Both the position numbers and the translations under genes were made by a program. Below are positions 10,820 through 52,108 of a stretch of 64,000 nucleotides of DNA, piece after piece. The notes beneath the pieces are model-generated. The model ran no database searches, was not told the origin of the DNA, and saw nothing but the letters and a program-made list of their open reading frames with translations. Position 1 is the first letter of the stretch; every line of letters begins with the position of its first letter. Source of the stretch: Mordavella massiliensis (GTDB taxonomy: Bacteria > Bacillota > Clostridia > Lachnospirales > Lachnospiraceae); assembly GCF_016902415.1 (NCBI RefSeq), contig NZ_JACJLV010000004.1, forward strand, positions 1 through 64,000. Direction: 5' to 3'.

Positions 10820-12882
10820 CACGGATCTGGAAACCTGACCTCCGCTTTAAAGAGGTCTCCGTCCGTGTCTATCAGAAACTCCCCTCCCTGAAGTTCCGTA
10901 AAGCTTTTTACGATGGCAAGGCCAAGGCCGGAGCCTTCTGTGTTTCTGGACATATCCCCCCTGACGAAGCGGTCCGTGATGTCCTGTCCGTGAAAATTCA
11001 GCTCCTGCGCAGATACATTTTTCATCCGGATCACCGCCGCTTTTTCCTGCTTCTCGATCTCCACATAGACCCGTGTATGAGGAAGGGCATATTTCACGAT
11101 ATTCATAAGAAGATTCTCAAAGATCCGATAGGTTTTCTGACTGTCCAGCCGGACAATCAGTTTCTCTTCCGGAAAGGTACATTTGAATTCCAGATCCGCG
11201 TCTTTGATCTTATCTTCCAGTTCCAGTTTCACCTGCTTTAGCAGATTCACGATATCTACATCCATGAGTTCCAGTTTCACATTATCCGTACTGGCTTTGC
11301 TCACTTCAAAAAGATCCTCGATCAGCACCTTCAGCCTCTGGGATTTGCTTTCCAGCACCTGGACATATTCCTTTTGCTTTTCCGTATCTTCTTCCTTCTT
11401 TAAAAGATCCACATAGGTGATGATCGCAGTCAGCGGAGTCTTCAGGTCATGGGACACATTGGTGATCAGCTCCGTCTTCATCTTCTGGCTCTTCACCTCT
11501 TCCTCCACTGCCTTGTCAAAGCCCTGCCGGATCTTCTCCAGGCCTTCCGCCACAGGTGCAAAAACGCCGGTCTCCTCCGGGATCTCTGTCTTCAGGCTTC
11601 CATCTGCGATCGCATTCACCGAATCGAGCATCCGGTCGTATTTTTCCCGGATCTCATTCAGATATTTTTCCAGGAAGTAAAACAGAAGGATCGAATAAAG
11701 CACCAGTAAAATGATCCCGTAATACCAGGTACAGCAGATCACGGTCAGGATCACAAAGTTGACGCCCACCACCTCCAGAACCTGCCGGTTGGTGATATCC
11801 GAAAGCTTCAGATCCGAAACCGACTGATAGGCTTTGCGGATAGAATCTCCCGTTGTCTGCCTGGCTTTTTGGATCCCCGCCCGCACGCGGCTCTCCGGGG
11901 CAAAGAACAGGCTGTGTTCCCGGACGTACGCTTTGGACCGGAAACGGATCAGATTCCTTACATTTCCTGCGCACCAGTAAATAACTCCGGCATACAGAGC
12001 CCAGACGGCCAGATCCAGGATCCCGGTCCTTCCTTCGCTTTGCCAGATCATCCTTCCGGCATTCACCCATACCCCGATGGCCACAACAGCTGTCCCGGCC
12101 GCTACCGCTTCCAGAGGGGCAAAGAACACTTTTTCTTCCCCTGTTCCAAAAGAGCGGATTAACGGATAGAGACACGCGGCCAGAGCCGCCACCGCCGTCA
12201 GGATCAGGATGTGAGACACCGCCGCTTTTGGAAGCTGATCGCTGTCCATGTAAAAGATTTCGCTCAGATAGGTCTGCAGATTCTCCTCTGACATGGCAAA
12301 CGTAAACGAGCAGTCTTCCGGCATCGCGTAATACAGATCTTCCTTTGTATACCCGCGGTAAGATCCATTTTCCAGCCGGTTCAAAACCTCACGGAACCCT
12401 CTCTCAAGCTCTGACTTATGCTCCCTTGTCGCAATCTCCACATCCGCCTCCCCATTCTGATCGTAGACAAGCGTCAGGCCCACCGCATACGTGGTGATCC
12501 GGTAATGATCAAAGTCCCCGCTGCTGTTTCCCAGGCTGGTGGCCATCACTTCTCCCTTCCGGTCCTTCATCACATATTCCAGATAGGGATAAAAGGTCTC
12601 ATACTCATTCTGGATCTCTGCCGGGAGAAAGCTTCCTCCCCTCAGGCCGTCCCCATTCGGGCGGTCTTCGTCTTCCCTTTCATAAAGGATCCAGGAGGCC
12701 TGCAGAAACTGTCCCAGAAAATCTTCCGATAACAGCATCTGTTTTTCCGTCTCTTCCTGATTCTCTTTCATCATCTGATTATAAATGCCATAATAAGATG
12801 TGATATGATACGCCAGCAGCACGATCGTTGCCACGATCAGAACCACTGCCATCTTATGTCTGTTTTTCAATCTTGTATCCAA
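10816..12882 (-). CDS. membrane sensor histidine kinase
   Basis: A 688-residue sensor kinase. An N-terminal membrane helix (about residues 11-30) is followed by an extracytoplasmic domain of about 200 residues, several more hydrophobic helices, then a HAMP-like linker and the kinase core. The H box is NVSHDLKTPLTAI, the N box region FENLLMNIVKYALPHT, and the G box GSGLGLAIVKSF. It would autophosphorylate on the H-box histidine and pass phosphate to the response regulator encoded just upstream, with which it overlaps by 29 bases. The signal is not evident. The multi-helix region between sensor and kinase is more elaborate than in simple VanS or WalK kinases. Confidence 0.9.
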   Translation of the reverse strand: MDTRLKNRHKMAVVLIVATIVLLAYHITSYYGIYNQMMKENQEETEKQMLLSEDFLGQFLQASWILYEREDEDRPNGDGLRGGSFLPAEIQNEYETFYPYLEYVMKDRKGEVMATSLGNSSGDFDHYRITTYAVGLTLVYDQNGEADVEIATREHKSELERGFREVLNRLENGSYRGYTKEDLYYAMPEDCSFTFAMSEENLQTYLSEIFYMDSDQLPKAAVSHILILTAVAALAACLYPLIRSFGTGEEKVFFAPLEAVAAGTAVVAIGVWVNAGRMIWQSEGRTGILDLAVWALYAGVIYWCAGNVRNLIRFRSKAYVREHSLFFAPESRVRAGIQKARQTTGDSIRKAYQSVSDLKLSDITNRQVLEVVGVNFVILTVICCTWYYGIILLVLYSILLFYFLEKYLNEIREKYDRMLDSVNAIADGSLKTEIPEETGVFAPVAEGLEKIRQGFDKAVEEEVKSQKMKTELITNVSHDLKTPLTAIITYVDLLKKEEDTEKQKEYVQVLESKSQRLKVLIEDLFEVSKASTDNVKLELMDVDIVNLLKQVKLELEDKIKDADLEFKCTFPEEKLIVRLDSQKTYRIFENLLMNIVKYALPHTRVYVEIEKQEKAAVIRMKNVSAQELNFHGQDITDRFVRGDMSRNTEGSGLGLAIVKSFTELQGGEFLIDTDGDLFKAEVRFPDPC

Positions 12883-13555
12883 CTCCCCACACCACCTTCA
12901 AATATTTCGGTTCCTTCGGGTTGATCTCAATCTTTTCCCGAATATTTCTTACATGTACCATAATGGTGTCTGTGCTGACAGCCCTCTCCTGCCAGACCCA
13001 TTCATAAATCTCTTCGGCGGAAAACACTCTCCCCGGGTGTTTCATCAAAAGCAGCAGGATCTTGTATTCCGTAGGCGTCACCTTCACCGGCTCGCCGTCC
13101 ACGCTCACGGTCACCGCGTCCTCATTCAGCTCCAGTCCTCCGACCACATGGATATTCTCGCTTTTTGCATTCTGATCCAGCTTCTCCAGAAACCGTTTAT
13201 ACCGGCGAAGCTGGGAATTTACCCTTGCCAGAAGTTCCATGGGCTGAAACGGTTTGGTTACATAATCGTCGGCCCCGATGTTAAGCCCCAGAATCTTGTC
13301 CACCTCTTCTGATTTAGCCGATAAAAAGATAATCGGGAAATCATATTTCTCCCGCAGCTTTTCCGTCATCCGGATCCCGTCCATCCGGGGCATCATCACA
13401 TCCACGATGGCCAGGTGGATCTTTTCTTTCTCCGCGATCTCAAGGCCCTCGATCCCGTCTGCTGCCTGAAACACCTGATAGCCCTGGCTCTTTAGATAGA
13501 TCTCGATCCCCTGGCGGATCTCTTTATCGTCTTCCGCCACCAGTATATGATCCAT
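12854..13555 (-). CDS. OmpR/PhoB-family response regulator
   Basis: A 233-residue response regulator: receiver domain (1-120) with the acidic pair EDD (8-10), the phospho-acceptor Asp52 in VDVMMPRMDG and the conserved Lys in FLSAKSEE. It ends with an OmpR-type winged helix (about 140-230; VSTDTIMVHVRNIREKIE is the recognition helix region). It partners the kinase whose gene overlaps its end. Three copies of TTC(T/G)AAAGAA overlap its own promoter, suggesting autoregulation. The regulon is unknown. Confidence 0.93.
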   Translation of the reverse strand: MDHILVAEDDKEIRQGIEIYLKSQGYQVFQAADGIEGLEIAEKEKIHLAIVDVMMPRMDGIRMTEKLREKYDFPIIFLSAKSEEVDKILGLNIGADDYVTKPFQPMELLARVNSQLRRYKRFLEKLDQNAKSENIHVVGGLELNEDAVTVSVDGEPVKVTPTEYKILLLLMKHPGRVFSAEEIYEWVWQERAVSTDTIMVHVRNIREKIEINPKEPKYLKVVWGVGYKIEKQT

Positions 13556-13584
13556 ATCCCCACCTCCTTGTCTTCTTGTGTATA

Positions 13585-13642
13585 AGCATAGCTTATATTT
13601 CTAAAGAACGTAAAGACATATTTCGAAAGAAATTCTAAAGAA
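13585..13642 (-). promoter_or_regulatory. promoter of two-component operon with three repeat boxes
   Basis: On the minus strand TTTACG (13609-13614), an 18-base spacer and TATGCT (13585-13590). Three 10-base boxes read on the plus strand as TTCTAAAGAA (13599-13608), TTCGAAAGAA (13622-13631) and TTCTAAAGAA (13633-13642). The last two are 11 bases apart, the spacing OmpR-type regulators use for tandem binding. Confidence 0.5.
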
Positions 13643-13671
13643 AAAGATGCCAGGTTTTTCTAATGGATACA

Positions 13672-48916: not shown

Positions 48917-50605
48917 TCATTTCTCTGCTTTATTTCTCACAAGCTCTTTTCCTGAAGTGACCACGATAGTAACTCCCAGGATCAGAAGCAGGATCGCCAC
49001 GATCAGCTGAAGCCCTTCAACCATAAATACAGCTGTTCCTGCGGAAAATGCCTTCACAAGGGCAATGGATCTCTGGACCAGCGCTGTGAATGTCACGATC
49101 AGCATGATCACAAACGGAGGCACCAGTGTTTTCAGTGTTCTTCCCGTAACTTTCAGGAATACGCACAGCGTGATCAGTACCAGGGCGCTCAGAAGCTGGT
49201 TCGCACTTCCGAACAGCGGCCAGATATTGGAGTAGCCGACCTGGGTCAGGATATATCCGAATACCAGTGTGATGACCGTTGCAAAATATTTATTGCACAG
49301 GACTTTTCTCCAGCCTTCGGCGTGCTCCATGTCATCCTTGCTGAACAGCTCCTGGAATGACATACGCCCGATACGAGCAACCGAATCCAGTGTTGTAAAC
49401 GCCAGAGCAGACACGCACATGGTCATAAAGCTCTGCGCCACATAGACCGGGATACCGAACATCTCAAGGAATCCTGCCACTCCGGATGAGAAGATCTGGA
49501 ACGGCGTTCCCACTGCTGCAGTTCCGTCCGCCCCTGCAGCCGCACCTGCAACACAGAGCGCGATCACTGCCAGAAGGCTTTCCAGCACCATCGCTCCGTA
49601 TCCGACTTTGAGCATATCCTTTTCGTTGGAGATGGTCTTGGACGAAGTACCGGACGATACCAGGCTGTGGAATCCGGATACCGCACCGCAGGCGACTGTT
49701 ACGAACAGGATCGGGAACAGTGTTCCCAGACTCTCATTCTGGAATCCGGTAAATGCCGGAAGGTTCATCGTCGGATGCGCAAACAGAAGCCCCAGGACTG
49801 CACCTGCGATCATACCGATAAACATAAATGTGGACATGTAATCCCTCGGCTGCATCACAAACCACATGGGCAGCACTGCCGCGAGGAAGATATAGACAAA
49901 TGCGATGTATACCCACATCTCTTTGCCCAGGATCACCGGGAAGTTCATACCGCATACAAACGCCAGCACGGTACATACCAGCCCGAACACAACTTCTTTC
50001 CATCCGGTCAGCTTCACTTTGTGCTGAACCACACCGAATACCACAGCAAACAGGATAAAGAACAGGGAAATGCTTCCCGCCGCTCCGTTTACCTGTGCAT
50101 TCTCAGAAAGAGTCTGTACTCCGTCTGTCACCACATATGCGTTGAATGTATCCGCCACCATATCGGCAAATGCCGCGATCACGATCAGGCAGAACAGCCA
50201 GCAGAATCCCAGGAACAGCTTTCTTCCCGCTTTTCCGATATATTTCTCGATCAGCAGCCCCATTGATTTTCCGTCGTTCTTAACACTTGCATACAGAGCG
50301 CCGAAATCTGTAACGGCTCCAAAAAAGATGCCGCCCAGGATGATCCACAGAAGGACCGGCAGCCATCCAAACGCCGCTGCCTGGATCGCTCCGGTGACAG
50401 GGCCCGCACCTGCTATGGATGAAAACTGATGTGCAAATACGGTCCAGCCGTCCGTCGGTACATAGTCCTGTCCGTCATTGTGAACGACCGCAGGAGTCTT
50501 CGCTTTCGGATCGATTCCCCACTTCTTCGCCAGCCAGCGTCCGTACAGCGCGTATGCCGCGATAAGGCAGACGGCGGCGATCAATACGATTACCAGTGTG
50601 TTCAT
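48917..50605 (-). CDS. cstA: CstA-family transporter (carbon starvation protein)
   Basis: A 562-residue polytopic membrane protein with about 14-16 helices. Family signatures: YGRWLAKKWGIDPKAKTPAV, DYVPTDGWTVFAHQFSSIAG, GPVTGAIQAAAFGWLPVLLWI, FGAVTDFGALYASVKNDGKS and FHSLVSSGTSSKTISNE. CstA and its relative BtsT are known as peptide and pyruvate transporters in Enterobacteria. Here the gene stands alone behind a T-box leader with an apparent alanine specifier, which argues for a link with amino-acid supply (inference). Start at the ATG preceded by AAAAGGAGAGTAGAGAATT. About 150 bases separate the T-box terminator and the start codon. Confidence 0.93.
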   Translation of the reverse strand: MNTLVIVLIAAVCLIAAYALYGRWLAKKWGIDPKAKTPAVVHNDGQDYVPTDGWTVFAHQFSSIAGAGPVTGAIQAAAFGWLPVLLWIILGGIFFGAVTDFGALYASVKNDGKSMGLLIEKYIGKAGRKLFLGFCWLFCLIVIAAFADMVADTFNAYVVTDGVQTLSENAQVNGAAGSISLFFILFAVVFGVVQHKVKLTGWKEVVFGLVCTVLAFVCGMNFPVILGKEMWVYIAFVYIFLAAVLPMWFVMQPRDYMSTFMFIGMIAGAVLGLLFAHPTMNLPAFTGFQNESLGTLFPILFVTVACGAVSGFHSLVSSGTSSKTISNEKDMLKVGYGAMVLESLLAVIALCVAGAAAGADGTAAVGTPFQIFSSGVAGFLEMFGIPVYVAQSFMTMCVSALAFTTLDSVARIGRMSFQELFSKDDMEHAEGWRKVLCNKYFATVITLVFGYILTQVGYSNIWPLFGSANQLLSALVLITLCVFLKVTGRTLKTLVPPFVIMLIVTFTALVQRSIALVKAFSAGTAVFMVEGLQLIVAILLLILGVTIVVTSGKELVRNKAEK

Positions 50606-50760: not shown

Positions 50761-51135
50761 AAAAAGAAAAACGCCTCCCGACAGATCACTCTGTCAGAAG
50801 ACGAAGTATATTTTCTCCGCGTTACCACTTCTCATTACCGATCATCTCGGTCACTCACTCCCGTCGTCCGCTTTGTCTGCGACCTCAGCACTTTCCCGGT
50901 TTCCTCCCCGTCTCTTGGGTTCATCCCCGGAAGGTACTCTCAGATCCTGGCGGATTAACAGGTTTCCTGATAACGGTGGAATTCCGGTCCGGGCTACTTG
51001 GCGTACCGCGTTCGCCCCGACTGCTCGCAGGGGATGGCTTCCTCGCTGTGCTGTTCCCTCACACCAGCCGGGAACTCTCTGAAAGCAGCTGAACTTCGGA
51101 AGTCCTGTCCTGTTCTTCGCATTGGCTTTTTTCAA
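50761..51135 (-). ncRNA. T-box riboswitch upstream of cstA, apparent Ala specifier
   Basis: On the minus strand: Stem I elements AGAGAG, then GGCTGGTG and GAGGGAAC in the distal arm, and the specifier-loop pattern GAA-GCC-ATCCCC-TGCGAGCAG (GCC at 51036-51038), with CTGCT/AGCAG closing the base. The antiterminator core AAGTGGTAACGCGG is at 50817-50830, with TGGT at 50824-50827. The terminator CTTCTGACAGA/TCTGTCGGGAGG plus T's is at 50761-50803. GCC is an alanine codon, and TGGT fits the A73 discriminator of tRNA-Ala. Uncharged tRNA-Ala would then allow transcription of cstA. The class is clear by motif; the specifier assignment rests on my alignment. Confidence 0.85.
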
Positions 51136-51144
51136 TCCTGTTTC

Positions 51145-51172
51145 ATTATAACTCAGCTGTCTCCAAAGTCAA
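51145..51172 (-). promoter_or_regulatory. cstA/T-box promoter
   Basis: On the minus strand TTGACT (51167-51172), 16 bases and TATAAT (51145-51150). Confidence 0.75.
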
Positions 51173-51417: not shown

Positions 51418-52108
51418 CTATATATTTTCAAATTTTCTGCAAAGTTCCTCATATGTCATCCTGCCGGATATAAAGTCCATCATAGTCAAATGCATTTTTT
51501 CGCCTTTTGTATAGGGCACATTAATGCACCTGTCCAGCAATTCCATCTCATTTTCCAAAGGACTTAGTACATTTTTCCTTTTAGAAAAAGCTTCATAGTA
51601 GCGGACACCCCACCTTCTCTGCGAAGCTGCATCCATATGGATCCCATCCGGATTTGGCGTCAGGCCTTCTGCTGTTACAAAATAACTGTTTTTCTGTTCC
51701 TGAGCAAATCTTAATAATTCCCTGTTTATCAGTTCATATTCTGTACAGTTTGCCCCAAGCCCCGATTTTCCCAGAAATCCTCCCAGGCCGCCAAGGATAA
51801 AGGGAATCTCCGGCGCGTTCAGTTCTTGTCTCAGCTCCGCTGTCATTGTCTGAAGTTTTTCGTAATAGGTCTGATACTTCCCATCGCAGCTGTCGCTTTC
51901 TCCCTGATGCCACAAAATACCGATAAGCTCCGTATCCTGCATGGCGAATTTCGCCTGACAGACCGCATGCCGAAAGAGCGTGTTGTCTGCCGCCCAGTCA
52001 TCTATTGTACTCCCGCCTTCTGCGCAGGGGATCAATCCGATTTTCTCTTCTTTGTTTTCCATACACCACATTGCTGCAAACGAACCCGCAAAGGATCACG
52101 GATGAACT
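51418..52108 (-). pseudogene. sialate O-acetylesterase-like esterase (SASA), 5'-truncated
   Basis: The readable part (217 codons from an internal ATG at 52071) matches the SASA/DUF303 esterase family: LIPCAEGGSTIDDWA, GILWHQGESDS (conserved Gln-Gly-Glu-Ser), ILGGLGGFLG and the catalytic region NPDGIHMDAASQR. Upstream in frame a further GSFAAMW matches the family until a stop near 52100. The N-terminal GQSNMAGRG block with the nucleophile serine is absent, so about 70 residues are gone and the protein should be inactive. Such esterases deacetylate sialic acid or xylan; the former would suit the host-glycan theme. Confidence 0.7.

Follow-up and report, generated by a model that had tools for sequence, protein, structure and literature searches.

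The leader of cstA in the window (the whole stretch of 64,000 nucleotides of Mordavella massiliensis analysed here) is very probably a transcriptional T-box riboswitch with the isoleucine specifier ATC, controlling a single gene, cstA. The codon read one triplet off gives alanine, as in an earlier sequence-only reading of this DNA; the comparative reading points instead to isoleucine and leucine and to the 2-oxo acids from which they are made. An isoleucine or leucine T-box is kept across one branch of Lachnospiraceae, and this ties CstA to the supply of branched-chain amino acids.

Judged from alignment and predicted folding, a genuine transcription-terminating T-box lies ahead of cstA. All its parts are on the minus strand. 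The promoter, TTGACT-16-TATAAT at 51145–51172, agrees with the consensus in 11 of 12 letters. Stem I (51023–51124) carries the AG bulge and the distal loop (CAGAGAG...GGCTGGTGTGAGG, 51081–51051), both of which are conserved in related leaders. Stem II with the S-turn motif CGAAC...AAGTAG corresponds to 50989–51020, and the Stem IIA/B element CCGGAATTCCACCGTTA to 50971–50987. Stem III is found at 50838–50850, with a predicted hairpin energy of −6.4 kcal/mol. These four elements are placed by the alignment to the Rfam T-box model RF00230, while the antiterminator (50796–50832), with the T-box bulge UGGU at 50827–50824, is placed by the same alignment together with the fold. The T-box core AGTGGTAACGCGG lies at 50829–50817. 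The intrinsic terminator (50767–50803) has 14 pairs and a T run; its predicted energy is −22.2 kcal/mol (stretch 50803–50772). In the predicted fold, its 5' arm is part of the 3' arm of the antiterminator, so that the two structures are mutually exclusive. Folding of the whole leader as a single sequence is uninformative (z −1.5). The sequence-only reading had recognised the promoter, the Stem I elements, the core, the T-tailed terminator and the CstA-family gene downstream, and all of these stand. The terminator is separated from the start codon of cstA by about 160 nt, and the ribosome-binding site GGAG is 15 nt upstream of the gene.

RF00230 matches the leader over its full length (positions 1–219 of 219) at 51126–50794 on the minus strand, with 81.7 bits (E 4.4e-18; 4227 families searched), and the same match is recovered again in a whole-genome search. 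It is interrupted by a long linker insert before Stem III. The score is below the curated Rfam gathering cut-off of 93, and for this reason a default Rfam scan of the window shows three tRNAs only and misses the T-box. Of 11 RF00230 matches in more distant cstA leaders, seven are above the cut-off (94–121.5 bits). The whole-genome covariance-model search finds 12 T-boxes in total, the cstA leader included.

The other 11 T-boxes of the genome were used to calibrate the register of the specifier, with the names of their downstream genes read from open reading frames rather than from profile searches. In all 11, a codon matching the gene downstream stands exactly 6 nt ahead of the GAGC-like 3' end of Stem I: CTG for leuS, GTA for valS, TTC for pheS, CCG for proS, GTA for ilvB, TGG for a TrpX-like binding protein, ACC for thrS, ATG for metG, TAC for tyrS, ATC for ileS and AAC for asnS. 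The same register in the cstA leader gives ATC (isoleucine) at 51035–51033. In the RF00230 alignment, AUC occupies the same columns. ATC also results from the TBDB rule, by which the codon occupies positions 2–4 of the specifier bulge, counted from its 3' end (PMC7778990). Besides, the helix closing the specifier loop covaries among leaders (CAGG/CCTG, CAGA/TCTG, AGGG/CCCT, TGGG/CCCA and GAAG/CTTC), which pins down where the loop ends and thereby the register of the codon. The base after ATC is C in the window leader, whereas A is commoner. With its conserved ATC as specifier, the leader falls into the isoleucine class of T-boxes; an alanine codon, as in the alanine class, is not found in this position.

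The sequence-only reading had taken GCC in the pattern GAA-GCC-ATCCCC as the specifier. These letters are present, but GCC (51036–51038) is the triplet preceding the codon, and in the predicted fold of Stem I the two C of this triplet pair with a GG on the opposite strand. The covariance model proposed there as a check does match the T-box, yet it places a codon other than alanine, ATC, in the specifier, so that the alanine assignment is wrong. The agreement of the TGGT bulge with A73 of tRNA-Ala is real. However, tRNA-Leu, -Lys, -Met, -Phe and -Val of this genome also have A73; the bulge is compatible with any of the A73 tRNAs and is thus no evidence for alanine. A73 was dropped as non-diagnostic. 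The tRNA genes read in the draft assembly of 141 contigs include no tRNA-Ile, and we suspect that the missing gene is located in the unassembled rRNA operons.

A scan of genome contigs yielded 80 cstA orthologs with 81–99% identity, most of them from Mediterraneibacter, Blautia and related Lachnospiraceae, plus 18 from spirochaete-labelled MAGs. The T-box core is seen in 56 of the 61 close non-spirochaete orthologs with enough upstream DNA, and the codon is ATC in every one of the 55 close orthologs in which it is readable. Eleven more distant cstA genes with a T-box come from a family-wide and a class-wide sample; eight of them have ATC and three have CTC (leucine). Of the 67 cstA leaders that can be read, 64 carry ATC and three CTC. 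The automatic count relied on a pattern that admitted ATC or CTC only; loci left unplaced by it were inspected by eye or in covariance alignments, and none of those inspected has another codon. The triplet preceding ATC, in contrast, takes 13 forms among related leaders (GCT, GTT, GAC, ATC, TTC, ATT and others). L038 appeared by pattern to have a CTC T-box and was rejected, as it has no covariance-model match. By these alignments, the regulatory pairing of a T-box with cstA, earlier reported once and doubted, is conserved among gut Lachnospiraceae.

In a quick protein tree without bootstrap, the CstAs with a T-box all group in one clade (SH-aLRT 100), within which the leucine codon is seen in two separate places. 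Outside the clade, the covariance model detects no T-box in 14 sampled CstA loci, and the pattern search finds no T-box core in the remaining sampled ones. Inside the clade, five Lachnospiraceae loci (L032, L059, L061, L067 and L069) are without a T-box, and the leader of L117 is degenerate. CstA copies on contigs of MAGs labelled Spirochaetaceae or Spirochaetales are 82–88% identical to the CstA of the window. The 18 spirochaete-labelled copies (L100–L108, L110–L116, L118 and L120) have no T-box core, four of them, inside the clade, having been checked by the covariance model. Unless these contigs are mis-binned, the copies probably represent transfer with loss of the regulator.

A T-box is also present upstream of cstA1, a CstA-family gene of Bacillus methanolicus, where it was described in one genome with its amino acid unassigned; the paper reports that the transcript is interrupted between the start site and the gene, and the authors doubt that the T-box acts on cstA1 (PMC4342826). 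By analogy, the T-box of the window could be a relic which no longer controls cstA. The distance between terminator and start codon and the five loci without the element, together with the degenerate L117, would fit such a relic. Nevertheless, the T-box is maintained in nearly all evaluable close orthologs (56/61) although the genes downstream of cstA differ, and the covarying helices and the invariant codon indicate selection, so a relic is unlikely. It is still less likely that the leader has dual specificity, with ATC as the main codon and the upstream GCY or GTY triplet binding a second tRNA (Ala or Val). For some T-boxes, specifiers in other frames have been considered (PMC7778990), and GCY or GTY is frequent as the upstream triplet; however, this triplet is offset by three bases, more than the −1/+1 frames that TBDB takes into account, it is not conserved, and its preference for GYY is accounted for by the paired fold. 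An alanine T-box, in which GCC is the specifier and cstA is induced by alanine shortage, is the least credible of all, because the GCC or GCT ahead of ATC in 43 of the 65 automatically read leaders and the compatibility of UGGU with tRNA-Ala are outweighed by the register that is correct in all the controls, by the variation of this triplet next to a constant ATC, by the predicted pairing of its CC and by its position beyond the five bases that the TBDB rule counts as the specifier region.

The isoleucine T-box of cstA contains an additional helix between Stem IIA/B and Stem III. In the window, it extends over 50962–50860 on the minus strand, from CCUGUUAAUCCGC to GCGGACGACGGG, with the pairs CCUGU/ACGGG and UCCGC/GCGGA. 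Such a helix occupies the same position in 45 of 47 non-redundant leaders, where dinucleotide shuffling of the linkers gives an expectation of 8.4. Its letters vary among leaders while the pairing is maintained. It contains an internal loop that recurs among leaders, with UUAA facing CGA or GA, and it encloses an insert of very variable length. The long-linker T-box L010 of another gene in the same genome apparently has a linker helix too, so the feature may not be specific to cstA. L010 (contig C14:51776–52093, outside the window) is a tyrosine T-box (TAC) followed by a gene for a small membrane protein (211 aa) and then by tyrS.

Based on the established T-box mechanism, tRNA binding and the induction of cstA can be pictured as follows. 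Under isoleucine shortage, the anticodon GAU of uncharged tRNA-Ile would pair with the ATC of Stem I, and the free ACCA end of this tRNA would pair with the UGGU bulge. This pairing would stabilise the antiterminator, the overlapping terminator would not form, and cstA would be transcribed. With charged tRNA-Ile, transcription would be terminated before cstA.

The isoleucine T-box of ileS in the same genome (L011) has the same architecture, with ATC in the same register. The cstA leader differs from it in controlling a transporter instead of a tRNA synthetase and in having the extra linker helix. The 5' strand of the specifier loop is mostly ACANGA in cstA leaders, against the usual AGUA. Isoleucine T-boxes are among the commonest T-box classes (PMC7778990). 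A survey of T-box-controlled transporters in 2008 listed seven families (MFS, APC, NSS, DAACS, LIVCS, NhaC and ABC), and CstA is absent from them (PMC2494555). The cstA leader resembles the T-boxes of those amino acid transporters in that a T-box serves to induce a transporter and the codon to predict its role; their branched-chain specificity can differ between relatives (PMC2494555). T-boxes and T-box-controlled transporters are thus already known, and it is the isoleucine assignment before cstA that appears new, although it may be listed in an earlier survey or in TBDB.

The gene cstA (48917–50605, minus strand) encodes a CstA-family transporter of 562 aa, which matches PF02554 with 485.7 bits (E 2.6e-145; cut-off 27). 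The pyruvate/proton symporters CstA and BtsT of E. coli belong to the same family. The CstA of the window is shorter than the E. coli symporter (701 aa), and its score of 241.6 bits against the model of the pyruvate/proton symporter CstA, NF011590, is far below the equivalog cut-off of 1188. CstA of E. coli is a narrow pyruvate transporter, and both CstA and BtsT of E. coli are regulated by other means (PMC7730263). A sequence search finds no homolog of the window CstA with a solved structure, and an AlphaFold model based on 24 close orthologs is unusably poor (pLDDT 43). No conserved operon partners are seen downstream of cstA, where the genes differ among orthologs, so that the operon gives no clue to the substrate.

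Few sequence signals hint at the role of an uncharacterised transporter, and the codon of a T-box is one of them. The genome contains homologs of ilvA (threonine ammonia-lyase), ilvB, ilvC and ilvD, and 2-isopropylmalate synthase; with these genes, isoleucine synthesis is probably possible. Acetolactate synthase (ilvB) is under a valine T-box. The branched-chain pathway to isoleucine, valine and leucine uses pyruvate as a substrate. CstA would import a precursor or source which relieves the shortage of branched-chain amino acids. The change from an isoleucine to a leucine codon within one clade fits a substrate useful for all branched-chain amino acids. The most likely substrate, if short of a probable one, is pyruvate or another 2-oxo acid feeding the branched-chain pathway. 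Peptides are a lesser candidate, and branched-chain amino acids themselves would be a rather unlikely one. The import of alanine proposed earlier falls with the alanine specifier, while pyruvate or peptides can still be linked to CstA on other grounds: pyruvate matters here as a precursor of branched-chain amino acids. It can be speculated, tentatively, that the CstA clade of Lachnospiraceae is a dedicated importer of 2-oxobutanoate, branched-chain 2-oxo acids or branched-chain amino acids, and that the codon records this role. We know of no CstA-family member for which these compounds are the substrate.

Two further loci are of minor interest. Upstream of the leader, an open reading frame at 51418–52071 on the minus strand looks like the C-terminal portion of a carbohydrate esterase, with a WHQGESD motif. 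Its N-terminus is apparently missing and it has no NCBIfam match; it is possibly a gene remnant. Outside the window, L126 (contig C3, around 12823–13656) encodes a 2-isopropylmalate synthase of 662 aa with a C-terminal AraC-type DNA-binding domain, an enzyme-regulator fusion in the leucine pathway.
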